Made by a program: the position numbers and the translations under genes. This document shows positions 1 through 16,224 of a stretch of DNA of 64,000 nucleotides, piece by piece. The stretch is from the NCBI RefSeq assembly GCF_000754805.1, contig NZ_KN150731.1, positions 3,831,886 to 3,895,885 on the forward strand. Direction: 5' to 3'. The stretch comes from Yersinia frederiksenii ATCC 33641. GTDB taxonomy: Bacteria; Pseudomonadota; Gammaproteobacteria; Enterobacterales; Enterobacteriaceae. How positions within the stretch are numbered: position 1 is the first letter of the stretch; each line of letters begins with the position of its first letter. Below the pieces are notes generated by a model. That model had not been told where the DNA came from. It saw only the letters and a list, made by a program, of their open reading frames with translations, and did no database searches.

Positions 1-69
1 CGTCAATTCCCAGAGTTCTCAGATCATCTCTTGTCATTACTCGAGCACGATAAGGCGCTGGAGAAATAA
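1..69 (+). CDS. C-terminal end of an upstream gene (partial)
   Basis: An open frame enters from the left edge and stops at TAA (67-69), giving the last 22 residues, ending in DKALEK. The stop overlaps the ATG of the next gene by one base (TAATG), so the two are probably translationally coupled and in one operon. Too little is visible to name a family. It matters because a precursor or tailoring gene for the operon could lie here or further upstream. Confidence 0.5.
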   Translation, partial: RQFPEFSDHLLSLLEHDKALEK

Positions 70-1025
70 TGAGACTGTTAGCCGTATGGGGTTATTTCGC
101 CTGGAGAAACCAGCTAGATAAGCTGGCTTTCAGTGGGCGAGCATTGACTCACTTGCAAGCCAAACTGGCTGTCGGGTTATTACGGCATGGCGATTATCGC
201 ATTTTACTGATGCTCGGTGCTTTGCGCCGGGCTTTCGGTTTGTCGTCACGGCGTCAGAAGAACCTGGCTCGGGTGGCTGCGGCTAATAGTCAGTGTTTGT
301 TGACCGGGCAGAAAAGCCCATCGGCACGCAGTTTTATCCGTACCGCGCAACGTCGTCAGGTATTAGAGTTGGCAGCAACCTTTGGGCAGAATCGGCGGAT
401 TTTAGCTCAATTGGCGGCTTGTACTCAGCAGTTGGATAGCCAAGTCAGTGCGCTGCACGAAGCGGGTTCTCCAGTGATTCTGGCACCTCTGCATATGGTC
501 TCAGATGTGCTCGCCGGTATGGTTGGTGCGGGCACTTATCCAGGTTTGGCGACGGTGGTGGTTTCAGCCAGCGCAGAAGCATATGAAGAGCAAGCTCGGC
601 AAATGGGGGGAGTGAATATCTCCTATTGCTCTATTCATGCGGATAGCCGTGCTATTGCCGGCAACCTGATGGACGCCATTATGGAAGCGGCAGAGCATAA
701 GCGAAATATTATGATTTTTCCGGATATTACACCGGATTACACCGTCAATAACCAGACGACCGAAACCGCCAAAATTCCCTGCCAATTGTTCGGTCGCCCT
801 GCCAATTTACACAGTGGAATTATCCGCCTGGCCAGAGCACTTTCAGCGCAAGTGGTTTTTTATTATCTGTATTACGACAAAGGAATAAAAATCCATGTTT
901 ATCCAGCGCTTAATGCACGGGAAGTTAAAAATAAACTACCCGAATTGATTGAAACATCAATGACGAAGCATCCACAAGATTGGCTGCTATGGCACTCACA
1001 TTCGTTGTTTTTTATTAATGAATAA
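69..1025 (+). CDS. LpxL/HtrB-like (LPLAT superfamily) acyltransferase
   Basis: This 318-residue protein resembles the lauroyl/myristoyl acyltransferases that move acyl chains from ACP to lipid A. The candidate catalytic motif is PLHMVSD near residue 141. It has three residues between His and Asp, where the family normally has four (HX4D/E), so the motif is atypical or slightly misplaced. FPDITPDY near 218-225 and a late GIIRLARAL segment fit the LPLAT fold. It starts a coupled operon containing its own ACP, ketosynthase, ketoreductase and hot-dog enzyme. The inferred job is to transfer a dedicated acyl chain to the exported product rather than to lipid A. Family confidence is fair; substrate is unknown. 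Confidence 0.65.
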   Translation: MRLLAVWGYFAWRNQLDKLAFSGRALTHLQAKLAVGLLRHGDYRILLMLGALRRAFGLSSRRQKNLARVAAANSQCLLTGQKSPSARSFIRTAQRRQVLELAATFGQNRRILAQLAACTQQLDSQVSALHEAGSPVILAPLHMVSDVLAGMVGAGTYPGLATVVVSASAEAYEEQARQMGGVNISYCSIHADSRAIAGNLMDAIMEAAEHKRNIMIFPDITPDYTVNNQTTETAKIPCQLFGRPANLHSGIIRLARALSAQVVFYYLYYDKGIKIHVYPALNAREVKNKLPELIETSMTKHPQDWLLWHSHSLFFINE

Positions 1026-1050
1026 TGTTACCTACAAAGAATAGTAGAAA

Positions 1051-3201
1051 ATGGAAAAGATAATCCCAACGCTAGTTTTTCAAAGCGAAACCAATGAATG
1101 TGGTTTGGCCTGTATTGCGATGCTGGCACAGACGCAAGGCATTGATGCACCACTGGAAAGCTTGCGTGAGCGTTATCCTGCCTCAGGGCATGGCACATCA
1201 CTGGCCAGGCTTTGTACTATTTTGTCTGAACTGGCCATACCGGCTTATCCGGTGGTGTTTGAACATCAGGAGCTGTCAGCGTTACCGCTGCCGGCCATTC
1301 TGCATTATGGTGCCAACCATTATGTGTTGCTCGCCTACCGCCAAGGTAACTATGTCTGCGTAATGAACCCGGCTATTGGCCAGCAGTTGCTGCCAATGGA
1401 TGCCTTAAAAGCAGAAATCAGTGGTTACGCGTTGGTACTGGACCCTGAAACTCCGGCAGATCCAGACGCTGTGAAGAAAATTCAACAAAGTAAGCGGCTC
1501 AGTGCACTCGACTGCATGAGCTTAAAAGAGACGGCGAGTATCCGTGGAATCTACTGGCTGATGACGCTGGCATTTTTGATCTCTCTGACTCTGTTTATTA
1601 TGCCGACCATGGTCAGCAGCGCTATTAATGATGTGTTTTCCTCTGCGGGCGATAAAGATTTTCCTTATTTCTATTTTCTATTGGCCTTTGTGGTCTCGAC
1701 GTCATTAGCTTTTGCTGTGCGATATATCACCGAGCGTTATATCAAACACTTTGTGGTGCTTAACAGTGTGGCCGGTTTCTCCCGTTTACTCAGTCACTCG
1801 CTTAACTTCTTTGATAAGCGAGCGCCGGGTGACATCTTCAGCCGGTTCTCCAACTGGCAGATGGCTGCAACACAGAAAATCGAACTGGATAATGGCCTGC
1901 GTACCGACTGGATCATCGGCGCAATTGCACTGGCAGTGATGTGCTATATGAGCCCACTGTTGGCAATGGTGTCGGCTATCGGTGTGATGTTGATGGGGCT
2001 TATCAGTATTTGGGCCATCTATCGTGACCGCTATTACACCCAGCAATTGCAAGTGAAAGGTGCTGAGCAAAGCGATTTTATTCTGGAGAGTATTCAGGGT
2101 TTTTCTACCATTAAATCTGCCGGTTTATCCAGCCAACGCCAAGGGGTGTTTGCCGGTCTGGCGCTGTCACTGTTCACGGCATTACAGAAGAAGAAAATCT
2201 ACGATCAGGTTAAAAATAGCCTTTATCAACTGATTGGCAGCTTGGAAATGGTGTTCTTCATGCTGCTTGCCTTGCCATTGTTAAAGCAAGGGACACTGAG
2301 TCTGGGGGAGTTTTTTGCCTATAGTTTTGTGCGCGAAATTTTCACCTCCTACATCACTAAAATATTCTATGCCATTTTGCAGAAGAACCAATTGCACGTC
2401 ATTGATATCCGCGCGCGCGACTTATTCCCAGCCGGACAACCGACACCCACAGAAAGTCGCTCAGCAGTACCGAAAGCTCCGCCGGTGTTTAACCATCAGC
2501 TGGTTTATCAAAATATTCGTTTTGCTTACGATGCCAGCCAACCGGTATTGCGTGATTTGTCGCTGTCACTGACGCGTGGACAAAGTGTGGCGATCGTGGG
2601 GGAATCCGGTGCCGGGAAAAGTACCTTGCTGAAAGTGATGGCAGGGCTGATGCCGCCACAGCAAGGGCAAGTTATCGTGGATGGGGAACCAGTTGATTTT
2701 CAACAGGCCCATGCGCTGTTCTTCCTGCAAAGTCAGGAAGATATCCTGTTTAATGCCTCGGTATTACAAAATATCACCTTGTTTGATGGGCATTTTGATG
2801 CCGAAAAACGCCAGCGTATTGAGCGCTCACTGCAAGGTCTGCAATTAACTCATGTTATCGATAAATTGCCAGGTGGCCTCAGTGCGTTGGTACGTGAAAG
2901 CCATTCGGCACTCTCTTTAGGGCAGCGCCAACGGTTGTTACTGGCTCGCGCGATGTACAGCGACTGCCCAGTGCTGGTGCTGGATGAGCCGACGGCCAAT
3001 CTGGATGAAGAGACGGCTAAGCAGGTAATGCAGACCTTACTGGACCATTGCCGTGAATATCAGAAAACATTGATCACCGTGACTCACAGTGAAAGTGTGC
3101 TGCCGATGTTTGACAAAATCGTCCGCCTAAATGACGGACAGCTGGTGCGTTGTATTCAGCCAGTAGTATCCGGTCATCTTACTCCAGCGGCGGTAAACTG
3201 A
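1051..3201 (+). CDS. C39 peptidase-containing ABC exporter (bacteriocin/microcin type)
   Basis: A 716-residue inner-membrane ABC transporter of the peptidase-containing (PCAT) type, which cuts a double-glycine leader from a peptide and exports the core. Residues 1-130 are a C39 domain with the QSETNECGLAC motif (catalytic Cys17, Gln11) and the GANH motif (His90). The usual Asp of the DPA(x)G motif is Asn106 (MNPAIG). Membrane segments lie around residues 165-440. The nucleotide-binding domain has Walker A GESGAGKST, signature LSLGQ (Ser-Leu-Gly-Gly variant of LSGGQ), Walker B VLVLDEPT and H-loop VTHS. It begins 25 bases after the acyltransferase and overlaps the next gene by one base. The substrate should be a leader peptide, not seen in the window. 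Confidence 0.85.
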   Translation: MEKIIPTLVFQSETNECGLACIAMLAQTQGIDAPLESLRERYPASGHGTSLARLCTILSELAIPAYPVVFEHQELSALPLPAILHYGANHYVLLAYRQGNYVCVMNPAIGQQLLPMDALKAEISGYALVLDPETPADPDAVKKIQQSKRLSALDCMSLKETASIRGIYWLMTLAFLISLTLFIMPTMVSSAINDVFSSAGDKDFPYFYFLLAFVVSTSLAFAVRYITERYIKHFVVLNSVAGFSRLLSHSLNFFDKRAPGDIFSRFSNWQMAATQKIELDNGLRTDWIIGAIALAVMCYMSPLLAMVSAIGVMLMGLISIWAIYRDRYYTQQLQVKGAEQSDFILESIQGFSTIKSAGLSSQRQGVFAGLALSLFTALQKKKIYDQVKNSLYQLIGSLEMVFFMLLALPLLKQGTLSLGEFFAYSFVREIFTSYITKIFYAILQKNQLHVIDIRARDLFPAGQPTPTESRSAVPKAPPVFNHQLVYQNIRFAYDASQPVLRDLSLSLTRGQSVAIVGESGAGKSTLLKVMAGLMPPQQGQVIVDGEPVDFQQAHALFFLQSQEDILFNASVLQNITLFDGHFDAEKRQRIERSLQGLQLTHVIDKLPGGLSALVRESHSALSLGQRQRLLLARAMYSDCPVLVLDEPTANLDEETAKQVMQTLLDHCREYQKTLITVTHSESVLPMFDKIVRLNDGQLVRCIQPVVSGHLTPAAVN

Positions 3202-4394
3202 TGCGTATCAATATGTTGAACAAAAAACAGCGATTAGCGCTGGCCCTGCTGATTATCGTGCTGCTGGTTATCGGTGGGGTCGTGGCTCTGTTGTTATCGG
3301 GTGATAAACAAGATGCGCCGCAGTTAACCGCCACTGTGGATCGCGGTGATATTGAACGTAATGTCATGGCCAGTGGCAGTTTAAAACCTTCACTGCAGGT
3401 CAATGTGGGGGCGCAGGTCAACGGGCAGCTCACTAAACTTTATGTCAAACAGGGTGAGCGCGTCACTCGTGGTCAATTGTTGGCTGAAATTGATCCAACC
3501 TTGCAGCAAAACGAATTGCGTAAATCGGAAGCCGAATTACAAAGCGCGCAAGCACAAAAGCAGGCGACTCAAGCTTTGTTGCGTCAATATTTGCTCGAAC
3601 TCCGTCGCCAGCAGAAGTTGGCAAAAGAGGGCTCTGGCGTACAAAGTACACTGGAAAAAGCGCAGGCACAATATGACAGTCAGTTAGCGCAACTTAATGT
3701 TAATGAAGCACAAATTGTACAAAGCCAAATGGCTTTAGAGACCGCAAAAGCTAATCTCGGTTTTACCCGCATCATGGCACCTATTGACGGTGAAGTACTG
3801 GGGATCGTCACCAAAGAGGGGCAGACTATTGTTTCCTCACAAACTGCGCCGACCATTATGGTATTGGCAAATGTCGATACCATGACAGTACAGACGCGGA
3901 TTTCAGAAACCGATATCCTCAAAGTCAGTGTCGGACAACCTTTGTGGTTTTACGTGGTGGCTGACCCTGAGCGCCGCTACGAGAGCCGGATGGATGCTAT
4001 TCAGGAAGCCTCCGCAGACAGCTTGCGTGAAGAGAGTTCTGGGCAAGCAAACAACCAGCAGCCTTCTGCGGTTTATTACAACGGGCTATTTAGCATTGCC
4101 AACCATGAGCGGCTATTGCGTACATCAATGACTGCGCAGGTCTTCATCATTACCGCACAAGCTAAAAATGTGTTGCGCGTGCCACTGGCTGCTTTAGGTG
4201 AACAGCAACCTGTTTCAGAGCCCAAAGCAGACAAACGCTATCGTATTCAGGTGACCAAAGACCAACAGACTACCGAACGCTGGGTTTCTATTGGCCTGCG
4301 TGATAGTCAATATGCTGAAGTGAAAGAAGGGTTAGATCAGGGTGAGCAGGTTGTACTCAGTGGTGCGTCGTCGGGAGTGAATAATGGACATTAA
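3201..4394 (+). CDS. macA-like: MacA/HlyD-family periplasmic adaptor
   Basis: A 397-residue membrane-fusion protein that should bridge the MacB-like pump and the outer-membrane channel. An N-terminal membrane anchor (about residues 9-33) precedes a lipoyl/barrel-sandwich segment, a long alpha-helical hairpin rich in Gln/Ala/Leu (about 100-185), the second lipoyl half (FTRIMAPIDGEV) and beta-barrel domains. The ATG at 3201 was chosen because it overlaps the preceding stop as TGATG; an in-frame ATG at 3150 lies inside the exporter gene. It overlaps macB by 11 bases. MacA family membership is clear; the cargo is not. Confidence 0.85.
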   Translation: MRINMLNKKQRLALALLIIVLLVIGGVVALLLSGDKQDAPQLTATVDRGDIERNVMASGSLKPSLQVNVGAQVNGQLTKLYVKQGERVTRGQLLAEIDPTLQQNELRKSEAELQSAQAQKQATQALLRQYLLELRRQQKLAKEGSGVQSTLEKAQAQYDSQLAQLNVNEAQIVQSQMALETAKANLGFTRIMAPIDGEVLGIVTKEGQTIVSSQTAPTIMVLANVDTMTVQTRISETDILKVSVGQPLWFYVVADPERRYESRMDAIQEASADSLREESSGQANNQQPSAVYYNGLFSIANHERLLRTSMTAQVFIITAQAKNVLRVPLAALGEQQPVSEPKADKRYRIQVTKDQQTTERWVSIGLRDSQYAEVKEGLDQGEQVVLSGASSGVNNGH

Positions 4395-6360
4395 TCCTGT
4401 TCATCACGATGACACCAACCACGCCCCGTTGATTCAACTCAAGGGGATCTATCGCCATTTTGCTTCTGGCAGCGCGTCGGTTGCGGTACTCAAGAATATC
4501 TCATTGTCGATTCACCGTGGCGAAATGGTGGCGATTATTGGTGCTTCTGGTTCCGGTAAATCAACACTGATGAATATTATTGGCTGCCTGGATAAACCGA
4601 CGCAAGGGGAGATGTCGATTCATAACATCCCGACGCGGCAGGCCAGCAGTGAACAACTGGCGCAATTACGCAGCCAGTACATTGGTTTTATTTTTCAGCG
4701 CTACCACTTAATGCCGTATTTAACAGCGACCGAAAATGTGGTTATCCCGGCACTATATACCGCAATGAGTGCGGATGAGCGCCAGGATCGCGCGACTTAT
4801 TTGTTGCGCCGTTTAGGCCTTGGCCAGCACTTGCTGCACAAACCGGCGCAGCTCTCCGGTGGGCAACAGCAGCGAGTGAGTATCGCCCGTGCCCTGATGA
4901 ATGGGGCCGGTATTATTCTGGCCGATGAACCGACCGGGGCACTTGATAGCACCAGCGGGCAGGAGTTGATGGGGATTTTGCACGGCCTGCATCAGTCCGG
5001 GCACACCATTATCATCGTGACCCATGACCGCAATATCGCTAATCAGGCGCAGCGTATTATCGAGATCAGTGACGGTGAAATTATTTCTGATCGTAATAAT
5101 GAGGCTACCGGCGCTGCGGCTGTCAATGCAGCACTGCCCGCGACCGTCGCCACTGGCCGTCCACACTGGTGGCTGAGTGTCAAAGAGGCTATCAAAATGG
5201 CCTGGCGCTCACTGCTTGGGCACCGTATTCGTGCTTTTTTATCGATGCTCGGCATTATTATCGGCATCTCTTCGGTGGTGTCCTCAATGGCGGTTGGGGA
5301 AGGGGCTCGTCAGGAAATCCTGAATGAAATCAGTCAACTGGGAACCAGTAATCTGGATGTTCGTCCAGGGTTAGGTTGGGATAAACCCCGGCCTGATTTT
5401 GAACGTGCACTTTCACCCAGCGATGTTGAGCTGCTTCGCCACCAGCCTTATGTTGATAGCTTATCACCCGTTGTGAACAAAGTGGTTGCCGCGGTGCGGG
5501 GCGATAAACAAGTGATGGTTTCGCTCTCTGGGGTCAGTGATGGCTTCTTTCAGGTAAAAGGGCTGAATTTTATGGCCGGTGATGGTTTTACCCAGAGCCA
5601 CGTTAATGCCCGCGAGCCAGTGGTCATTCTGCAACCTGAGCTCAGTGATACCTTGTTTGCTGCTGGAGAAAATCCGATTGGTGAAATTGTTCAGTTGGAT
5701 GGTATTCCGCTACGCGTTATGGGCGTTGCCAAGCGCGGCAATTCATCATTCGGGGGCTTATTAACCGCCTGGATGCCTTATACCTCTCTGACCGAGCGTA
5801 TTTCGGGGGATATTCCGTTGGAGTCGATCTCGGTGCGGGTTCGTGAAGGTTACTCGCTGAATGATGTGCAACAAGATGTCGAAAAGTTGCTGGAGCAAGC
5901 CCATGGTCAGCGGGACTTTTTCATTCTCAGCAATGACCAGATGAGCAAAGCGATTCAGAAAACATCTGACTCCATGACACTGCTGATCACCTCGATTGCC
6001 GCTATTTCTCTGTTGGTGGGCGGGGTAGGTGTGATGAATATCATGCTGGTGTCGGTGACTGAGCGTACTCATGAAATTGGTATTCGTCTCTCCGTGGGTG
6101 CACGACCGAGCGACATTATGCTTCAGTTTCTGATTGAGGCAGTAGTGATCTGCACCCTCGGCGGCCTGATTGGCATTGTTGGCTCTGCACTGGCAGGGGT
6201 GATTTTCTCTTGGGTTACCCAGACCTTTACCATGATCTTCACCTGGCCGCCGTTAGTGTTGGCTTGTAGTTTCTCCGCGCTTATCGGGCTGGGATTTGGT
6301 TTTTTCCCGGCGCGCAATGCCGCTCGTTTGCATCCAACCGAGGCGCTGGCACGAGAATGA
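4384..6360 (+). CDS. macB-like: MacB-type ABC transporter (ATPase-permease fusion)
   Basis: A 658-residue protein, close to the roughly 650 residues of E. coli MacB. The N-terminal ATPase has Walker [10 protein letters not shown], signature LSGGQQQR and Walker [13 protein letters not shown] first membrane helix near 280-300 follows, then a large periplasmic domain, and three C-terminal helices including [13 protein letters not shown]. MacB pumps work with MacA and a TolC-like channel to push periplasmic substrates (macrolides, peptides, toxins, siderophores) out of the cell. The presence of both this pump and a C39 exporter suggests two-step export: across the inner membrane first, then out from the periplasm. 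That division of labour is inference. Confidence 0.9.
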
Positions 6361-7754
6361 TGAAATTAATTAACGCTGGGATTATTACCCTGCTGCTGAC
6401 CGGTTGCGGTTCTTTACTGAAGAGTGATTATCAGCGTCCCATGCTGTCAGTACCTGATGAGTGGCGAGTCAAAGACAGTGGTGGTGGCTACCTGCACCAC
6501 AGTGTGCACTGGTGGGAAAATTTCGATGATCCGCAATTGTCAGAAAGCATCAGCCGTATGTTGATCAGCAATAATGACCTCGCGACCGCGGGGTTGAAAT
6601 TGCAGCAGGCGCGCTTAACGGCGGGGCTGACGAATACCAATTTGAATCCTGGTGTCACATTGACGGGCACTGGCAGTAATACTCGATCATTGAATGAAAA
6701 TACTCAGCCACGAGAAAACTACAGCACTTCATTTGGCTTGAGCTACGAGCTGGATCTGTGGGGTAAATTAGCCCGTGCCCGTGAGCAATCGGCTTGGCTG
6801 GTCAATGCGACTGAACAAGATCGGCAGGAAACTGCGCTTTCACTGATTGGCACCACTGCTCAACTCTACTGGCAGATTGCTAAATTCAATCAACAGTTGG
6901 GCTACCAGCAGGCGGCAGTGGCTATTTCGCAAGATACCCTCAAAATCGTGCGCTCGCGCATAGAGGCGGGAGATGCGGGTGAAATCGAGCTGTTACAGGC
7001 GCAACAGACCTTACTGGAACGTCAAAATCAGTATCACAATCTCGAACAGCAGCGGGAAGCCGCACGCAATGCTATGGCATTGCTGTTTAATCGTGCACCT
7101 GATTATCGTCAGGCCGAACGTAAGGCACTGGATTTACAACAGCAGGTGCCGATCGCCGAAAGTTTACCGCTACAGGTGATTGCACTGCGGCCTGATGTAC
7201 AGGCTGCCGAGTGGCGTTTACGTGCTGCATTAGCCGGCTCGGATGTCGCCAAACTGAATTTCTACCCGACACTTTCACTGGGGGCCACCTTGGATGCCGG
7301 TAGTTCGGTATTTTCACAATGGTTTAGCAACCCAAGCCGGACACTGAGTGTTAACAGCGCATTGCCTTTCTTACAGTGGAATACCGTGCAGCTTACCATC
7401 GACCAGTCAAAGCTGGACGTGCAATTGGCAGCGGTCGATTTTCGCAGCAAGGTCTACAGCGCACTGAAAGATGTAGATGACGCAATGACCCAACGGCTGA
7501 GTTATCAGCAACAAAAACAGAATCAGTGGCAGAACCTGCAACTCAGCCAACGTCGACTGAGCCTAGCCAGCAGTCAATATCAGGCAGGTGCAGTCTCATT
7601 TCAGACCTTACTGGATGCGCAGGATGCCCTGCTGACCAGTGAAACCAGTATGCTCGAACTTCAATATAACTACCTGAATGCCACCATGAAATTGTGGTTA
7701 GCCTTAGGTGGCGGTGTTGATAGCAGCAGGGAAAGTATAGGAATTAAATCATGA
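6357..7754 (+). CDS. NodT/TolC-family outer-membrane efflux lipoprotein
   Basis: A 465-residue outer-membrane channel of the RND/ABC efflux factor family. The N-terminus [19 protein letters not shown] is a lipoprotein signal with the lipid-modified Cys at residue 17. Two outer-membrane-efflux repeats follow, with typical motifs such as SYELDLWGKL near residue 130 and ALRPDVQAAEWRLRAA near 277. The ATG overlaps the macB stop (ATGA) and the 3' end overlaps the ketosynthase start by four bases. It should be the exit duct for the MacAB-like pump in the same operon. Confidence 0.88.
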   Translation: MMKLINAGIITLLLTGCGSLLKSDYQRPMLSVPDEWRVKDSGGGYLHHSVHWWENFDDPQLSESISRMLISNNDLATAGLKLQQARLTAGLTNTNLNPGVTLTGTGSNTRSLNENTQPRENYSTSFGLSYELDLWGKLARAREQSAWLVNATEQDRQETALSLIGTTAQLYWQIAKFNQQLGYQQAAVAISQDTLKIVRSRIEAGDAGEIELLQAQQTLLERQNQYHNLEQQREAARNAMALLFNRAPDYRQAERKALDLQQQVPIAESLPLQVIALRPDVQAAEWRLRAALAGSDVAKLNFYPTLSLGATLDAGSSVFSQWFSNPSRTLSVNSALPFLQWNTVQLTIDQSKLDVQLAAVDFRSKVYSALKDVDDAMTQRLSYQQQKQNQWQNLQLSQRRLSLASSQYQAGAVSFQTLLDAQDALLTSETSMLELQYNYLNATMKLWLALGGGVDSSRESIGIKS

Positions 7755-9001
7755 CGAATACCGTTAAACAGCGCCGGGTTGTAGTGACTGGCTATGGCAG
7801 TGTGACCCCAATGGGTATGGACGCGCAGCAGAGCTGGGCGGCGATTATGGATTACCAATTGGGTTACCGTTATTACGATAAATCCGAGCAGGGGATTAAA
7901 TCGCGATTCTTTGGCTTGCTTGATGCAGAGCCTAATTTGAAAGCGGTACCCGCTGCGATACGCCGCCGCCTGCCGCGCTATGCCCGACTGGCGCTGGCTG
8001 CAGCACGAGAAGCCATGGCGATGGCCTTTGCCGAGAAGTCCCCGGCAGACTATTACGATTTGCTCGATTGCGGCACCATCATCGGCAGTGGCTGGGCAGG
8101 TCAGGATGAAACCCATGATAACTATGAAGGTTATCTGGAAACCGGGCTGGGTACCCCATTCGGTTGTTTCCTGTCAATGCCGAATGCCGGGACGGCGGCA
8201 TGCAGCTTGTACTGGGGATTGCGCGGTTACCAGAACTCACCGATCGCCGCTTGTGCCACCGGTACCATTGCCATTGGTGATGCCTTTGAAATCATTCGTA
8301 GCGGACGAGCGTCCATGATGCTGGCGGGAGCGGGAGAATCACTGCGCAGTGATGCCGCAGTGTGGAATATCGATATCTTGGGCGCACTGGCGCGCGAGCA
8401 GGAAGATGCTAGCAAAGCCAGCTGTCCGTTTAGTTTAGACCGCAATGGTTTTGTGCTGTCCGAAGGGGCGGCAGTGCTGTGTCTGGAAGAGCGGGAAGGG
8501 GCTATTGCCCGTGGCGCTCATATCCTCGGCGAGATAAAAGGTTACGGTAACTACTCCGATGCCTTTGATTTCACAGCACCTGCAGAAGATAAAGTGGCCC
8601 GCGTGAAAACTATCCAACATGCCTTACAGCAGGCGGGTTTGAGTGCCGATGACATTGATTACGTTAACCTGCACGGCACCTCCACTCAGCTTAACGATCT
8701 GAATGAAACTCAAGCCATTAAACAGGCATTTGGTGACGCGGCTTATACCACGCCGTTGTCCAGTACCAAATCCTATTCAGGCCATTTGATTGCAGCAGCA
8801 GGCAGCTTTGAATCCATTATCTGTTTGCAAGCTTTGCAACATCAGATGATGCCAGCCACCTGTAATCTGAAGAATGCCGACCCGCAATGTGACCTTGATT
8901 ACATCAGCGAAGGGCATCGTTCAGCGGCATTACGCAACACCCTAAACCTGAGCTTTGGTTTTGGCGGCGCGAATGCTGCATTGGTCATCGGGCTGGATTG
9001 A
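7751..9001 (+). CDS. Beta-ketoacyl-ACP synthase (FabF-like)
   Basis: A 416-residue condensing enzyme that extends an acyl chain with malonyl-ACP. The Cys-His-His triad is visible: Cys168 in AACATGT, His in NLHGTSTQ (about 309) and His in SGHLIAAAG (about 345). The C-terminal glycine-rich NLSFGFGGANAALV is typical of KAS I/II. It is the first of four fatty-acid-type genes that end the operon, coupled to the channel gene by an ATGA overlap. Its location beside exporters and an ACP, and away from the housekeeping fab cluster, points to a specialised acyl product. Confidence 0.9.
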   Translation: MTNTVKQRRVVVTGYGSVTPMGMDAQQSWAAIMDYQLGYRYYDKSEQGIKSRFFGLLDAEPNLKAVPAAIRRRLPRYARLALAAAREAMAMAFAEKSPADYYDLLDCGTIIGSGWAGQDETHDNYEGYLETGLGTPFGCFLSMPNAGTAACSLYWGLRGYQNSPIAACATGTIAIGDAFEIIRSGRASMMLAGAGESLRSDAAVWNIDILGALAREQEDASKASCPFSLDRNGFVLSEGAAVLCLEEREGAIARGAHILGEIKGYGNYSDAFDFTAPAEDKVARVKTIQHALQQAGLSADDIDYVNLHGTSTQLNDLNETQAIKQAFGDAAYTTPLSSTKSYSGHLIAAAGSFESIICLQALQHQMMPATCNLKNADPQCDLDYISEGHRSAALRNTLNLSFGFGGANAALVIGLD

Positions 9002-9003
9002 AT

Positions 9004-9828
9004 ATGACCTTTAACTCGTCGTTTAATTACCATTACAGCCTCAGTGATGCTGAACGTTGGGCTGAGTTTTCCGGTGATTACAATCCAATCCATTTTGATC
9101 TGCAACATGCACAGCATTTGGGGCAGGAGCAACTGACTGTCCACGGTATGCGCGCCATGCTGGATATTAAATATCAGCTTAGTACCGCGTTATTAACTGC
9201 ACTACCCGACACTGATTTTTTGCGTTTCAATGCGCGCTTGCGCCAACCGGTGTTATGCCATACGCCGTATCAGTTACAACTGAGTCAAACGCAGGGGCAG
9301 GTGAGTGGCAATCTGCTCGACAGTGCTAATGGTGAAAGTTGCTTTAACGGCAAGCTGCGCAGTGCGCCAGCGTTGCGACAAACTGACTGTGAGCCATGGA
9401 GCTCTTTGCCTGCGGACGATGTTTATCAACTCAGCCAGCAATTTCCCGGTGATACATCGCATCCGGCAGAGTGTTGGGCGTTTTTCGATGCACTGCTGTT
9501 TAAGTTGCTGGTCGCAGCTCCGCAAACACTGGCAACGGCCAAAGAGGTGTTGCCAGGCATTCAGGCGGAAACCTTGATCGATGTCTTCAAGCATGTGCCG
9601 GTTATTCAGACGCATCATGATGTGCATTTCAGTGCTGATTTGCTGCGCATCAACCAACCGAATTTATTTGTCCGCAGTGCACTGCACTATGCCATCGAGC
9701 CGACACTGGTTGTTGGTAATCCTGAAGATGGCTGGGTATTGCGCTCGGCTATTGCGGCCCGGACCGACATCGGGCCATTAATTACCACCGCTGTAACATT
9801 AAAAACGTGGCCATTAGCCGCGCATTAA
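9004..9828 (+). CDS. MaoC-like hot-dog enzyme with an extra C-terminal half
   Basis: The first 60 residues contain SGDYNPIHFD, the MaoC/R-hydratase signature whose Asp and His do hydration or dehydration of enoyl/3-hydroxyacyl thioesters. The remaining part to residue 274 has no motif I recognise; it may be a second, degenerate hot-dog domain, since double hot-dog proteins are about this size. The ATG at 9004 starts two bases after the ketosynthase stop; an upstream in-frame TTG at 8998 is possible but less likely. Within the operon it would be the dehydratase that follows the ketoreductase. Confidence 0.75.
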   Translation: MTFNSSFNYHYSLSDAERWAEFSGDYNPIHFDLQHAQHLGQEQLTVHGMRAMLDIKYQLSTALLTALPDTDFLRFNARLRQPVLCHTPYQLQLSQTQGQVSGNLLDSANGESCFNGKLRSAPALRQTDCEPWSSLPADDVYQLSQQFPGDTSHPAECWAFFDALLFKLLVAAPQTLATAKEVLPGIQAETLIDVFKHVPVIQTHHDVHFSADLLRINQPNLFVRSALHYAIEPTLVVGNPEDGWVLRSAIAARTDIGPLITTAVTLKTWPLAAH

Positions 9829-9842
9829 GAAAGGATAAAACC

Positions 9843-10091
9843 ATGGAAAAGTATCAACACGTTTATGACACCGTATGTGAAATGTTATGTGACGCCAAAG
9901 ATTTGGAAATGTCGGCGCTGTCACCTGAAATGCCTCTGCATCAGTTAAAACTCGACAGTCTGGATTATGTTGAATTGATGGTGCTGGCAAAACGCGAATT
10001 CGGTGCCACGCTGAATGCCGAAATGTTTATGGAAAGCCCGGACATGACTTTAGGCGAGCTTTGTCAGAAGCTGGCTGAGCAGAAGAAGTAA
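9843..10091 (+). CDS. Acyl carrier protein
   Basis: An 82-residue acidic protein with the phosphopantetheine attachment motif LDSLDYVE (Ser39). It tethers the growing acyl chain for the adjacent ketosynthase, ketoreductase and dehydratase and should present it to the acyltransferase at the operon start. The ATG at 9843 is preceded by AGAAAGGATAAAACC, a good ribosome-binding site; the longer in-frame extension upstream is not needed. No phosphopantetheinyl transferase gene is visible in the window, so a housekeeping enzyme must activate it. Confidence 0.92.
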   Translation: MEKYQHVYDTVCEMLCDAKDLEMSALSPEMPLHQLKLDSLDYVELMVLAKREFGATLNAEMFMESPDMTLGELCQKLAEQKK

Positions 10092-10095
10092 TACT

Positions 10096-10830
10096 ATGAG
10101 CAGGCAATGGGTGTTAATTACTGGCGGCAGCCGTGGCATTGGCCGGGCATTGGTTGAAGAGCTGGCCAAAGAGTGGGATGTTGTTTTTACCTGGCGTCAT
10201 GGTGAACAGCAAAGTCACGATGTCATCGAAAGTTGTGAAGGATTACCCGGTCGGGTGACTCGCTATCGTTGTGACGGCAGCAATGAAGCTGATGTTGATA
10301 CATTGGCCCCACAATTATTAGAAAAGTATGGTCCGCCCGGTGCGGTTATCCATAATGCTGGCATTACTGGCGATAGCTTACATATTCAGCAAAATGGTGA
10401 TAACTGGCGTAATGTCATGGATACCAATTTGAATGCTATTTTCTACTGGAATAAGCACCTCTTGCCGTCAATGATGATGCAGGGCGAGGGGGCTGTGTTG
10501 CTGATGTCTTCGGTTACCGCCATCAAAGGCAATATCGGACAGAGTGCTTATGGGGCCAGTAAAGCGGCAATGATTGGTCTTGGTCGCTCTCTGGCTCTTG
10601 AGATGGGCCGCTTTGGTATTCGGGTAAATTGCTTGCTACCGGGAATAATTGACAGTGATATGACGCGTAATATGCCTGCTGATGCCTTAAAAGGATTACG
10701 TAAGCAGATCCCATTACGTCGTTTAGGTGATGCGCAAGAAGTCGCTCGTGTCAGTGCCTTTATGATAGGTAATGATAGCCGTTATATGACCGGGCAGGCA
10801 TTAGTGCTGGATGGCGGATTAACGGCTTAA
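10096..10830 (+). CDS. 3-oxoacyl-ACP reductase (FabG-like SDR)
   Basis: A 244-residue short-chain dehydrogenase. It shows the NADP-binding TGGSRGIGRA at residues 8-17, the NAGITG motif, catalytic Ser in LMSSVTA, the YGASK active site (Tyr-x-x-x-Lys, about residue 152), and the C-terminal MTGQALVLDGG. It should reduce the 3-ketoacyl-ACP made by the operon's ketosynthase. It starts five bases after the ACP stop and closes the operon. No enoyl reductase gene follows, so the chain may leave as a hydroxy or unsaturated acyl group. Confidence 0.92.
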   Translation: MSRQWVLITGGSRGIGRALVEELAKEWDVVFTWRHGEQQSHDVIESCEGLPGRVTRYRCDGSNEADVDTLAPQLLEKYGPPGAVIHNAGITGDSLHIQQNGDNWRNVMDTNLNAIFYWNKHLLPSMMMQGEGAVLLMSSVTAIKGNIGQSAYGASKAAMIGLGRSLALEMGRFGIRVNCLLPGIIDSDMTRNMPADALKGLRKQIPLRRLGDAQEVARVSAFMIGNDSRYMTGQALVLDGGLTA

Positions 10831-11895: not shown

Positions 11896-14271
11896 TTAAA
11901 AGTTAATCCGAAAACCGATGTTAGCCATGATGGGTGACTCAACATGTGTGCCTTTACGATAATTCGCTTCAGCATAAAGCGTCGTTTGCTTTGTCAGATT
12001 AACATCTACACCCAGCCCATATTTTGCGGTATTGCCAGAGAAATCATTATTAAAGTCATTTACCTGGTTGATGGTCACGGTATTTGACTTAATAAACTCT
12101 CTTTCCATCGCGACTTTAGCGTAAGGGCGAACAATAGCACCATTCTTCAGGTCGAATTTTGTCCCAAGATGGGTTCCTAACTCGCCTTTTGCTGAACGGT
12201 TACTATCAATTTTGGCTTTCATACCATTGTTCAGTGCAATATCTTTATCTTGTGCCGTGAAATAACTGGTACGAACATAAGGCTCAACAAACCAATTATC
12301 GGACAGTTTGTAATGGTAGCCAGCTTCCAGCGAACCACCTAATGCATTCTGGTCGTAATTACTTTGTACAGAACCTACGTTTGTCATATTGGCATTCAGT
12401 GAGTTCTTAAAATGGTTAGCTTTGAGAACTGCATCAATATAATAGCCACTGTTATCGAAATAACTGCCGTACGCGCCCAAGCTATAACTGTCAATTGTAC
12501 TGTTACCACCACGAGCATGCTTCAAGCGGTTATTGCTGTAAGAGGTAAAGCCCCCTAATACTAATTGTCCTGAAGAGAGGCCAAATACTTTATCAGCACC
12601 TATTTCAAAACCATCCTGCTGTAAACGATAAGCAGCATCATGGGCTGCACTGAATCGAGTATTGTTGGTCAAATAGCGGCCCCAAACACTGGCATTGTCG
12701 CCTTTACTATTATTTAAATCGCCTTTACGTGATCTCAGATTCTGCAATTCGCCATCAAAAATAAACTGGCTGGCCGAGGCCATACTTAATACGGCGTCAG
12801 TTGATGGAGTGGTTTTCTGGTTAGCTTCAGGCTCTACCGGTGCTGGTCCAGGCTCCACGGTGCCAGGTTCTTCTGGTTCAAGTCCTGCATCCAGTGTGCT
12901 ACCTAAATACCACAGATTTCCCCCGGCTCTGGCCGAGTTGTCCCACTTTTGCAAGCCATAAACATATGTGCCGCCATCGATTTCAGTGATGTTAGCTCCA
13001 GTAAAGGAGGCTAGTGTGAAATGAGCATTACCACTGAGATCGTGGATAAGGTCTAAAGTTGTTTCACCTGGTGCAGTTATTTCAACACCAGAATCATTCA
13101 CCATCACTTTGTGTGACCCGCTGCCATTAGCGATGGTCACGAAGTTACCTTTACCTTCAGCAATTGAGGTGTTGAATAAGAAAGAACCTGAACCAGAAAG
13201 TGTGCCGATATTTAGTGAGGTATAATTGCTACCGGTGCCTGCCAGAAATGAAACTTGACCGCTATTTAACATTAAGTTATCAACGGTAGCAGAAGCATTA
13301 TTCGCTGCATTATATCGCACTCTTAAATGGGTATCGTCACCATTAAGAACGATATTCTGAGCATAAGCACCGTTAGTTTCATCGGTATCTAGATAGACTG
13401 ATGCTGTGTTATTGACTTCGGTCAGTCCGGTTAATTTCGCTCCAGCACGCACCCAAGAATAAGCACGATCAAATAAGCTTGTATTGTGCGACTCACCACC
13501 AGTATAGATATTTTGGTAAGACGAACCGTTAAATGTTGCGTCGCTGGAAAGCCCGGTAGCATCAATACGCTGGGAGGCCGTATCAGCGAATGTAGCATTA
13601 ACACTATGGCCATTAGCGGCAACAACCTGTCGGCTGGAATCAACAAATTCCGAGTCGTAAGATGTGGCTTTAGTATCCCAGTTTTTCGACTCGTTCTTGA
13701 TACCCCAAAGCATTTCATAGGAGGTATCTTGATAGTGGCTATTGGAGATATAGGGGTTGAATTGAACACTGCCATCTTCTGCCGTTTCAGTGTAAACATT
13801 CCCGCTCATAGCAAATTGGGTTGAGACAACTACGGCGGAATTACCTTTCGCAATAGTCTGGTCGGCTGAGGTCATTACCCACATCAGACTATTATTTAGT
13901 GTGGTATTTTCTGCCCGACCTTCATAGGTAGGACCACCCTGATAGTGAGTACCAGTGATTGTGAAACGACTATTATTAACTTCAGTATAACGAATAGTGC
14001 CGAGGGCAACGGCTGCGCCGAAATAGTTGTGAGGTTGATATAATTCATATCCATCACCATTAAAAATAAAGTGATGATCTTCAGTACCTGCCGTTACACC
14101 ATCGCCTAGTGAAATACTGTGAAATTCACCTGCACCAAATTTAGATTGTTCGCAAATATCGGAGACGGTATAACCCACACAAGGTGCCGCATTAGCACTC
14201 ATTGAGGTCGCTGTATAAATAATGGAAGAAATAGCGATACTTAGGTAGGTTCTTTTTATATGAATATTCAT
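11896..14271 (-). CDS. Autotransporter (type Va) with AIDA-like passenger
   Basis: A 791-residue secreted surface protein. A cleavable signal ends in SMSANA near residue 28. The passenger shows degenerate repeats of the kind seen in AIDA-I/Ag43 (for example VVAANGHSVNATFADTASQ and DATGLSSDATFNG), expected to fold as a beta-helix. Only two Cys residues occur, both at the mature N-terminus. A Pro/Glu-rich linker (EPEEPGTVEPGPAPVEPE, near 465-482) precedes the roughly 270-residue beta-barrel ending in IGFRINF, with the terminal Phe needed for Bam assembly. Likely roles are adhesion or aggregation; the ligand is unknown. No protease triad was noticed. Confidence 0.9.
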   Translation of the reverse strand: MNIHIKRTYLSIAISSIIYTATSMSANAAPCVGYTVSDICEQSKFGAGEFHSISLGDGVTAGTEDHHFIFNGDGYELYQPHNYFGAAVALGTIRYTEVNNSRFTITGTHYQGGPTYEGRAENTTLNNSLMWVMTSADQTIAKGNSAVVVSTQFAMSGNVYTETAEDGSVQFNPYISNSHYQDTSYEMLWGIKNESKNWDTKATSYDSEFVDSSRQVVAANGHSVNATFADTASQRIDATGLSSDATFNGSSYQNIYTGGESHNTSLFDRAYSWVRAGAKLTGLTEVNNTASVYLDTDETNGAYAQNIVLNGDDTHLRVRYNAANNASATVDNLMLNSGQVSFLAGTGSNYTSLNIGTLSGSGSFLFNTSIAEGKGNFVTIANGSGSHKVMVNDSGVEITAPGETTLDLIHDLSGNAHFTLASFTGANITEIDGGTYVYGLQKWDNSARAGGNLWYLGSTLDAGLEPEEPGTVEPGPAPVEPEANQKTTPSTDAVLSMASASQFIFDGELQNLRSRKGDLNNSKGDNASVWGRYLTNNTRFSAAHDAAYRLQQDGFEIGADKVFGLSSGQLVLGGFTSYSNNRLKHARGGNSTIDSYSLGAYGSYFDNSGYYIDAVLKANHFKNSLNANMTNVGSVQSNYDQNALGGSLEAGYHYKLSDNWFVEPYVRTSYFTAQDKDIALNNGMKAKIDSNRSAKGELGTHLGTKFDLKNGAIVRPYAKVAMEREFIKSNTVTINQVNDFNNDFSGNTAKYGLGVDVNLTKQTTLYAEANYRKGTHVESPIMANIGFRINF

Positions 14272-14659: not shown

Positions 14660-16084
14660 TTATTCTTGATAAGGCGTATATTCCCCGGTCAGACTTTCGA
14701 GGAACGCAACGATATCGAGAACATCCTGTGGTGGCAGGTTAGTGCCGACCTGATATTTCAACATCATCTCGACCGCTTGAATCAGATCTTCGGCTTGAGC
14801 ATCGTGGAAATAAGGGGCTGTCAGCGCAATGTTACGCAGACCCGGTGTTTTAAAGCGATGCATATCACGGGGGGCTTGAGTAACATTAAAACGGCCATGG
14901 TCATCAGCCGTCAGCTCTTTTGGTCGATCGGCAAAGTAATTGGCTTTTAATCCCATTAGATCATAAGACTGTCCGCCAAGATTCTTACCAACGTGGCAGG
15001 TATCGCATTTATTTTTTTGGAATAACACTAAGCCATTTTTCTGACTGGTCGTTAAGGCATTAACATCCCCTTTCAAATAGCGATCAAAAGGACTATTGGG
15101 TGTGGTTAGGGTTTTCTCAAATTCAGCAATGGCATCAGTAATGGTTTGTTCGGAATAACCTTGCGGATAAACCTGAACAAATTCTTGAGTTAACTGTGTA
15201 TCTTGTTGCAGTTTATTAATGATGTCATCCCATGAAGCTGAGGCCATTTCCACCGGATTAAGCGGTGGCCCGCCAGCTTGCTGTTGTAAATCAACGGCAC
15301 GGCCATCCCAGAATTGATTAACATTAAATACGGCATTGAAGACGGTTGGGGCATTAATTCCGCCTTTCTGACCGTCAACCCCAGTTGAGGTAGCCAGATT
15401 ATCGACCCCGCCTTTTGTCAGCAGATGACAACTTGCGCAGGAGATGGTGTTATCACTGGATAGTCTCGGGTCGTGGAAGAGACGTGCACCTAGCGCGACT
15501 TTTTTACCGTCTACTGGCAGGGCATCCGGCAGAGGCTGCAATGTCAGGTGCTTCATGTCACTGCTGCTGTTTGAAGGGAAATGCTCTGCCCGGTGTGATT
15601 TTACCCAATCCAGGATTTGGTTACGTTCCTCGGCATTGATACCAGAAGACCAATGTAAAACTTCAAAACGTTGTGGTGGCATTTGTTCGCGGGCAATAGC
15701 CGATTCAATTTTAGCTAAATCAGCCTCCGGTAAGGCGCTATTTTCTTTAATAGCCAATAAGGTGGGTTCCAATGAAAAATATTGGCTGCCTTGTTGAATA
15801 TCGTAATCCATTAATTGTTTCACGCCTGGAATAACAGCATAAAACGGCAGGGATGCACTGCTGGTATGGCAATAATCGCAGCCCTTTTGATAAAACAAAT
15901 TACTGACTTGTTGATTGGTTAGTGTGGTATTGCCCGCAGAGGGAATTGCATCGTTGGTTATGATTTCTTCCTCGCTGATTAATGCCTTACTGCGTGCGTT
16001 ATCCGCCATGTAGATATAGCCAGCCATACCCAGATAACCTGCAACTATTAATATACCTCCGCCAATTAACCATTTTCTTATCAC
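14660..16084 (-). CDS. yhjA: Tri-haem cytochrome c peroxidase (YhjA/Ccp-type quinol peroxidase)
   Basis: A 474-residue membrane-anchored periplasmic peroxidase that reduces H2O2 with electrons from the quinol pool or c-type donors. One N-terminal membrane anchor (residues 5-27) is followed by three haem-c motifs: CDYCH (69-73), CASCH (216-220) and CDTCH (360-364). The extra N-terminal haem separates YhjA from classical di-haem CcpA. FWDGRA, LNPVEMA and PGLRNIALTAPYFHDA match E. coli YhjA from memory. I chose GTG at 16084 because AAAGGAG lies seven bases upstream; the 29-residue upstream extension has no such site. Its promoter shows FNR and OxyR motifs, as known for the E. coli gene. Confidence 0.93.
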   Translation of the reverse strand: MIRKWLIGGGILIVAGYLGMAGYIYMADNARSKALISEEEIITNDAIPSAGNTTLTNQQVSNLFYQKGCDYCHTSSASLPFYAVIPGVKQLMDYDIQQGSQYFSLEPTLLAIKENSALPEADLAKIESAIAREQMPPQRFEVLHWSSGINAEERNQILDWVKSHRAEHFPSNSSSDMKHLTLQPLPDALPVDGKKVALGARLFHDPRLSSDNTISCASCHLLTKGGVDNLATSTGVDGQKGGINAPTVFNAVFNVNQFWDGRAVDLQQQAGGPPLNPVEMASASWDDIINKLQQDTQLTQEFVQVYPQGYSEQTITDAIAEFEKTLTTPNSPFDRYLKGDVNALTTSQKNGLVLFQKNKCDTCHVGKNLGGQSYDLMGLKANYFADRPKELTADDHGRFNVTQAPRDMHRFKTPGLRNIALTAPYFHDAQAEDLIQAVEMMLKYQVGTNLPPQDVLDIVAFLESLTGEYTPYQE

Positions 16085-16224
16085 AGCAGCACTCCTTTGT
16101 TGTGTGGAAAGTGATAAGTCACTTTCACATTTATCCCCTTCGTATTTGAAGCCGACAACCTGCAACGCCAATTACGTTGGGTATAGGGTTTTTATCCTGT
16201 TAATAACCTTATTTATTGAATGGG

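Follow-up and report, generated by a model that had tools for sequence, protein, structure and literature searches.

Gene content of the operon

We analysed an operon at the start of a 64,000-nucleotide stretch of the genome of Yersinia frederiksenii ATCC 33641 (hereafter the window; G000:C1:3831886-3895885, host genome 4.94 Mb), which encodes enzymes of acyl-chain synthesis, an LpxL-like acyltransferase (LPLAT), and two export systems. The operon begins upstream of the window with two further genes ahead of LPLAT, encoding a candidate precursor peptide and a DsbA-like protein, and we consider it probable that the product of the whole set is an exported ribosomal peptide bearing an acyl chain and disulphide bonds. 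The nine genes inside the window are all on the forward strand and span positions 69-10830, with adjacent pairs overlapping or spaced by 4-25 bases (Table 1). This tight packing on one strand had been described in an earlier sequence-only reading of the window and was confirmed here, and the gene names given in that reading agree with our Pfam and NCBIfam assignments.

Table 1 Features of the operon. Negative positions lie upstream of base 1 of the window.
Feature	Position	Strand	Basis of assignment
Precursor peptide gene, 62 residues, double-glycine leader	-1031 to -843 (L002:15855-16043)	+	PF15959 (DUF4762), 42.6 bits, cut-off 27
Terminator-like hairpin between peptide and DsbA-like genes	L002:16093-16125		Predicted fold
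DsbA-like gene, final 69 bases inside the window	1..69 (gene -614 to 69; L002:16272-16955)	+	PF01323, 49.8 bits; C-H-Y-C
LpxL-like acyltransferase (LPLAT), 318 residues	69..1025	+	PF03279; motif P-[LM]-H-x-x-S-D
C39-peptidase ABC exporter, 716 residues	1051..3201	+	Peptidase_C39 (82 bits), ABC_membrane, ABC_tran
MacA-like periplasmic adaptor	3201..4394	+	NF008606, 291 bits (below cut-off 342); TIGR01730 above cut-off
MacB-like ABC transporter	4384..6360	+	MacB_PCD (133 bits), FtsX, ABC_tran; NF007826, 734 bits (below cut-off 966)
NodT/TolC-type outer membrane channel	6357..7754	+	TIGR01845, 258 bits (above cut-off 210)
FabF-type beta-ketoacyl-ACP synthase (KS)	7751..9001	+	Pfam/NCBIfam; Cys-His-His
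MaoC-like hotdog protein, TTG start	8998..9828	+	PF01575; hydratase motif D-x-N-P-[IV]-H
Acyl carrier protein (ACP)	9843..10091	+	Pfam; D-S-L site
FabG-type ketoreductase (KR), short-chain dehydrogenase/reductase	10096..10830	+	Pfam/NCBIfam; Y-x-x-x-K

Two of the Pfam matches were marginal (LPLAT to PF03279, 23.0 bits against a cut-off of 22.3; the MaoC-like protein to PF01575, 27.2 against 27.0), and because most matches fell below the NCBIfam equivalog cut-offs we do not claim exact orthology to MacA, MacB, FabF, or FabG. The MacA-like gene starts at its first ATG, codon 3198 being CTG. When homologs were aligned, the active-site residues of the KS (Cys-His-His), KR (Tyr/Lys), ACP (D-S-L), and MaoC-like protein (its hydratase motif) were invariant in 24/24 rows, the catalytic Cys and His of the C39 peptidase were present in 27/27, and the C-x-x-C of the DsbA-like protein was present in 20/20. 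The 27 rows for C39 and LPLAT correspond to 26 distinct sequences, since L025 and L044 are one contig from a metagenome-assembled genome (MAG), and they include pieces of a decayed copy from Chimaeribacter.

The precursor peptide

The sequence-only reading had pointed to the region upstream of base 1 as the place where a small gene with a double-glycine (GG) leader should lie, and the 62-residue DUF4762 open reading frame (ORF) occupies this position. It ends 843 bases before base 1 and is followed by the gene for the 227-residue DsbA-like protein, the stop of which overlaps the LPLAT start. DUF4762, a family with no named function, thus corresponds to the precursor itself. The leader comprises 15 residues and terminates in I-V-G-G, and eight positions were invariant in 23/23 aligned peptides (M1, G14, G15, C35, D43, K44, G46, and C61). 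Among these, K44, which lies in a D-K-x-G motif, is the sole invariant lysine of the core; the motif is also kept in the peptide of plasmid RHB43-C19 and in that of plasmid pE41 (as D-K-D-G). Homologous clusters carry a leader peptide as well: a GG-leader ORF was present in 19/19 loci recovered from genome contigs, and the decayed Chimaeribacter plasmid copy was the single cluster in which none was found. Outside the clusters, a weak DUF4762 match in genome G271 (E 0.007, below the cut-off) fell within a 581-residue frame.

We estimated dN/dS, the ratio of nonsynonymous to synonymous substitution rates, in Yersinia from the window and eight species (eight rows for LPLAT) and obtained values of 0.21 for the leader, 0.27 for the core, 0.08 for LPLAT, and 0.03 for the KS. 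The peptide gene is therefore constrained yet evolving faster than its enzymes, and we rejected diversifying selection on the core, for which a value of 0.27 indicates purifying selection.

The hairpin predicted after the peptide gene consists of 14 pairs followed by a T-rich stretch, with a folding energy of -20.8 kcal/mol and z-scores of -4.3 and -5.2 at two lengths. Across the window and 18 other loci, the space after the peptide gene ranged from 60 bases (in Citrobacter sedlakii) to 353 bases, and in 16 of these 19 gaps a hairpin was predicted that folds at -7 kcal/mol or below and is followed by T-rich sequence; the remaining three (L037, L038, and L039) had none or very weak ones.

Conservation and distribution across genomes

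A scan of genome contigs with the LPLAT alignment, which used one pattern and was not exhaustive, recovered 19 loci, comprising eight in Yersinia, four in Rahnella, three in Serratia, and one each in Pantoea, Leclercia, C. sedlakii, and the MAG. In 18/19 of these loci the order peptide-(DsbA)-LPLAT-C39-MacA-MacB-NodT-KS-MaoC-ACP-KR and the strand were the same. DsbA was missing from two of the 18 (R. woolbedingensis and R. inusitata), and the MAG locus was without NodT and the genes from KS to KR. Because this gene order recurs in several genera, it does not represent a chance neighbourhood. Some copies are damaged, with the C39 gene of R. inusitata in two pieces (in-frame stop) and that of Y. 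massiliensis in two overlapping frames.

LPLAT was detected in 7/295 genomes of the order. Five of them have the KS module, which was absent from the loci seen in the other two, the MAG and G105. The G105 locus retains NodT, and its 96-residue GG-leader ORF was recognised by eye and has no Pfam match. The shorter relatives without a KS module in the locus (L026:9411-11956 and L044:3393-10269) have LPLAT, C39, MacA, MacB, and a GG-leader ORF, and perhaps draw on host acyl-ACP. Within a sample of the class, 1/369 genomes matched, namely the window's own.

In addition, 9/5,426 E. coli genomes carried LPLAT, all on plasmids, a count obtained with E. coli-type queries that could miss diverged copies. 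Of the five of these E. coli with a source given, four came from birds or pigs (one recorded merely as 'cloacal swab'), and the fifth was of human origin. Further plasmid copies (one Pantoea plasmid counted) were found on two Salmonella plasmids, in Chimaeribacter, and on Serratia marcescens plasmid pE41. The Chimaeribacter copy is decayed, with LPLAT and C39 in pieces and the fatty acid synthesis (FAS) genes present, and the pE41 copy is rearranged to MacA-MacB-NodT-KS-MaoC-ACP-KR-LPLAT-C39, with its own GG peptide and a MacA-like ORF annotated at 246 residues.

Co-occurrence of the peptide with its enzymes

LPLAT and the peptide matched the same 21/25 Yersinia genomes, and the other four were without both (in one Yersinia genome, G685, LPLAT is in two pieces); the chance of this overlap is 8e-5 if the genomes are treated as independent. 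Across the order, DUF4762 scored above the cut-off in 4/295 genomes. These four all belong to the five genomes that carry the complete cluster, and in the fifth, R. inusitata, a diverged peptide was found by eye. On plasmids, the E. coli-type peptide was detected in 12/72,556 records, the same 12 E. coli and Salmonella records that carry LPLAT; these represent approximately 10 distinct plasmids, as two pairs look like duplicate deposits. The two additional plasmid records with LPLAT were those of Chimaeribacter, where the peptide was not found in the decayed copy, and of pE41, which has its own, different peptide. These co-occurrence counts rest on few independent lineages. In CP099079.1 the peptide lies ~42 kb away from the cluster, which indicates that the pairing does not reflect linkage alone. 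Pairwise distances of KS, LPLAT, C39, MaoC, KR, DsbA, and ACP correlated at 0.90-0.99 with one another, and those of the peptide core correlated with enzyme distances at 0.78-0.88.

Acyltransferase and predicted disulphide formation

Profile comparison placed LPLAT with the LpxL-type family (hhalign probability 91%, E 1.3e-6), with H142 aligned to the invariant histidine of the LpxL-type profile. The catalytic motif of LpxL is H-x4-[DE], which LPLAT does not carry; its own motif, H-x-x-S-D (H-x3-D), was present in 27/27 rows and places the acid one residue closer than in LpxL. An AlphaFold model (mean pLDDT 78.5, pTM 0.80) consists of an N-terminal helical part followed by alternating strands and helices. 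A sequence search for relatives of solved structure gave one match (E 0.57), which we took as chance, and in the same-genus genome G258 the protein is 96% identical. The host genome encodes three ordinary PF03279 genes (LpxL-type) besides the distant LPLAT of the operon, which makes a plain lipid A role for the latter unlikely, and we therefore rejected its identification as a plain lipid A enzyme.

Where a cluster has an intact DsbA, its peptide contains four or five cysteines; in the five loci without a DsbA match the number is two (R. woolbedingensis, R. inusitata, pE41, and G105) or zero (the MAG). Cysteines near positions 20 and 41 are lost together in the two Rahnella, and this joint loss suggests that C20 may pair with C41, which would leave C35 to pair with C61.

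Fimbrial neighbourhood

The clusters often lie near fimbrial genes, which are of several types. In the window genome and in all eight Yersinia loci the peptide gene is preceded by a chaperone-usher fimbrial operon, and an usher was found within 9.2 kb in 14/14 genomes measured (among the matches listed, near ushers included), for which the chance expectation per genome is 0.026-0.125. Of the 16 genomes surveyed, two fall outside this count: in R. woolbedingensis the contig stops where the cluster does, and in G105 there is no PF00577 usher, a class-5 (CS1-type) fimbrial operon adjoining the cluster instead. An orthologous usher (at least 84% identity) was present in the same 21/25 Yersinia as the cluster, the best matches in the other four reaching 43-60%; since usher and cluster are linked in Yersinia, they may have been gained or lost jointly for that reason alone. 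A second usher inside the window (57119-58816, forward strand, PF00577; G000:C1:3889004-3890701) is distinct from the usher that precedes the operon.

In Citrobacter the fimbrial operon is also upstream of the cluster, and in G166, Leclercia, Pantoea, R. laticis, R. victoriana, and three Serratia it shares the contig with the cluster and lies 3.4-9.1 kb downstream of KR; R. inusitata has a fimbrial operon likewise placed in this range, with a less similar usher. Among the plasmids, pE41 carries a class-5 usher gene near the peptide, a K88-like operon adjoins the peptide gene of pSalMiami, and in E. coli Br_190 a CS22/SEF14-family operon and the cluster are ~12 kb apart. Since relatives have fimbrial types in common, we estimate roughly five or six independent pairings of cluster and fimbria from usher scores and annotations. 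Beside the Br_190 cluster (L048:31870-36661), a polysaccharide deacetylase, a glycosyltransferase, CptA, and a pseudogene of lpxM are annotated, a possible envelope-modifying group.

Comparison with known systems

Several characterised systems share parts of this gene set. Class II microcins (for example, colicin V) have a GG leader, a C39 ABC exporter, and disulphides, together with a single HlyD-type type I exporter and an immunity gene, and are not known to have LPLAT or FAS genes. The operon shares with them the double-glycine leader, the C39 exporter, and, as predicted, disulphides; unlike them, its adaptor is nearest to MacA and stands beside a MacB-like gene, rather than forming an HlyD-type one-step exporter. 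Aryl polyene clusters are marked by an ammonia lyase, several dehydratases, and an MMPL exporter, and none of these signature genes was found among the nine operon genes and the two upstream genes. We therefore rejected an aryl polyene cluster, in agreement with the sequence-only reading; the three ordinary PF03279 genes elsewhere make a lipid A variant unlikely as the product of the operon's LPLAT.

Parallels are also found in the Aat/CexE (dispersin) and MacAB-TolC/STII systems. CexE enters via Sec and is tied to fimbriae, and the enterotoxin STII is not known to be acylated. The 11 proteins of the operon gave no match to PF00795, the Lnt-like C-N hydrolase family. The Aat system resembles the operon in having a small secreted protein with a dedicated acyltransferase, in enteric bacteria and on plasmids or islands, and in its periplasmic adaptor, TolC-like channel, and MacB/Lol-like ABC protein (PMC7943197). 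It differs in its acyltransferase, the Lnt-like AatD, which modifies an N-terminal glycine, and no GG leader, C39 exporter, ACP, or KS of its own is described for it (PMC7943197). STII export follows two steps, with entry into the periplasm by Sec, disulphide formation by DsbA, and exit through MacAB-TolC (PMC5985334). In the operon, Sec is replaced by a C39 exporter, and the genes for every component stand in one place.

The lipidated ribosomally synthesized and post-translationally modified peptides (RiPPs) include microvionin, goadvionins, lipoavitides, selidamides, and nostolysamides, which are lanthipeptides or related and use GNAT acyltransferases (PMC13060382). In those compounds a ribosomal precursor with a leader is acylated on the N-terminus or on Lys/Orn side chains (PMC13060382), features that would be shared here if the peptide is acylated as we propose. 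As in lipidated RiPPs, an encoded leader-bearing precursor lies beside modifying enzymes; in contrast to them, the operon has an LpxL-like enzyme, its own ACP, KS, KR, and MaoC-like protein, disulphides, and export by C39 and MacAB-NodT. None of the 11 proteins matched a GNAT family at the E-value thresholds applied, LPLAT being present instead.

Proposed pathway and alternative explanations

These observations can be combined into a pathway. Because a terminator-like hairpin follows its gene, the peptide would be made in excess over the enzymes. KS, KR, and the MaoC-like enzyme, together with the dedicated ACP, would finish a special acyl chain, probably by extending host acyl-ACP, and since no enoyl reductase is encoded among the genes, the chain probably has a 3-hydroxy or unsaturated end, provided that no reductase of the host intervenes. 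The LpxL-like enzyme would then take the chain from the ACP and attach it to the core peptide, with the D-K-x-G lysine as the most likely site. By analogy with its family, the C39 exporter would cut the leader after GG and deliver the core to the periplasm, where the DsbA-like enzyme, probably membrane-anchored, would make the disulphide pair where present, as the low-cysteine peptides of clusters without DsbA support. The product would finally be moved from the periplasm to the outside by MacA-MacB-NodT, as is described for MacAB-TolC and STII (PMC5985334). The two-step export that the sequence-only reading had put forward fits the gene content and the published MacAB model (PMC5985334). Together with Aat/CexE, this precedent makes the last steps plausible (PMC5985334, PMC7943197). 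Once outside, the product may act at or near the cell surface with the neighbouring chaperone-usher fimbriae, perhaps in the manner of acylated CexE/dispersin in other enteric bacteria. That the peptide is acylated, on which residue and with which chain, and that it acts with the fimbriae, is our inference.

It is possible, and we propose it tentatively, that the operon represents a new class of ribosomal lipopeptide, disulphide-bonded, acylated at the conserved lysine by an LpxL-type enzyme supplied by its own ACP, exported in two steps, and serving as a lipid-anchored surface coat or partner of chaperone-usher fimbriae of more than one type. No paper on this gene set appeared among the matches listed in the open-licence literature, the term DUF4762 occurred in no paper of the open-licence literature searched, and by all that could be searched this is an uncharacterised lipopeptide system. 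If the proposal is correct, a dedicated FAS set would supply the chain that an LpxL-type enzyme adds to a ribosomal peptide, a pairing that did not appear among the literature matches listed; the unnamed Pfam family DUF4762 would gain a role; a lipopeptide would be linked to fimbriae across genera; and the presence of the gene set on conjugative plasmids, both in E. coli from poultry and in Salmonella, would be explained.

Several observations weigh against an acylated, fimbria-associated peptide. The spacing of the LPLAT motif, H-x3-D rather than the H-x4-[DE] of LpxL, means that enzymatic activity is not certain, and D-K-x-G is missing from both KS-less relatives, with D-K-P-N in the MAG and no counterpart in G105. 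In one profile search PF15959 matched 6/12 cluster genomes or records, four above the cut-off, and several cluster peptides were identified by eye or tblastn, not by profile. The relation between DsbA and cysteine number has an exception in pSalMiami, where a four-cysteine peptide accompanies a split DsbA. The distance correlations compare the genes with one another, not with a species tree, so that common descent alone could yield them. For the fimbriae, no PF00577 usher was found on E. coli plasmids E9 and PSS-15, the usher lies ~13 kb away on RHB43-C19 and ~65 kb away in decayed Chimaeribacter, and the MAG locus had no fimbrial match, for which reason we rejected the fimbria as a universal neighbour. 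Moreover, Serratia, Rahnella, Pantoea, and Leclercia appear to share one fimbrial type and Yersinia to have another, so these genomes are not independent.

We weighed three alternatives to an acylated peptide acting at the surface. The first is that the peptide is exported unacylated as a bacteriocin similar to class II microcins, while KS, KR, MaoC, ACP, and LPLAT modify an envelope lipid, either to protect the producer or to aid export. The combination of GG leader and C39 exporter is typical of class II microcins, divergence is faster in the core than in the enzymes, and genes annotated as CptA and LpxM (the latter a pseudogene) lie near one E. coli copy. We nevertheless regard this explanation as unlikely, given that two loci lacking the KS module still combine LPLAT with a GG ORF and the exporters, that the core is under purifying rather than diversifying selection, and that the clusters have a fimbrial neighbourhood. 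No additional gene was seen within the operon, an immunity gene elsewhere not having been sought, and C. sedlakii has just 60 bases after the peptide gene.

A slightly less probable alternative is that the acylated peptide is a signal controlling fimbrial phase or expression, not a surface coat or effector. The Pantoea fimbrial locus encodes a LuxR-type regulator and a tyrosine recombinase (PF00589), both confirmed by Pfam, the latter of which we take to be FimB/FimE-like. Look-alike ORFs of ~182 residues that start like the Pantoea recombinase occur in 7/8 loci of the shared fimbrial type, the exception being Leclercia; a LuxR-type match just under the cut-off lies beside the pE41 fimbria; and AraC-family, helix-turn-helix, or adhesin-biosynthesis regulators are annotated near plasmid copies. 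Such regulators are, however, ordinary in fimbrial operons, and a hairpin in this position points to a peptide made in large amounts.

Lastly, it is very improbable that two unrelated pathways share the operon, one for a type II FAS/LPLAT lipid of aryl-polyene-like kind and the other a pump, the peptide having no part in either: KS, KR, dehydratase, ACP, and LPLAT do occur together in aryl polyene clusters, and Chimaeribacter has FAS genes with no peptide found (though its LPLAT and C39 are broken), but peptide and LPLAT occur together in 21/21 Yersinia and 12/12 E. coli and Salmonella plasmid records, the pairing persists both in the rearranged operon of pE41 and when unlinked in CP099079.1, and the nine genes include no aryl polyene signature gene.

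Other features of the window

Two ORFs on the reverse strand downstream of the operon were recognised by eye. The first, of 791 residues (11896-14271), is autotransporter-like, with a signal peptide and a barrel-like end, and the second, of 503 residues (14660-16171), contains several C-x-x-C-H haem-type motifs and is perhaps cytochrome c peroxidase-like.

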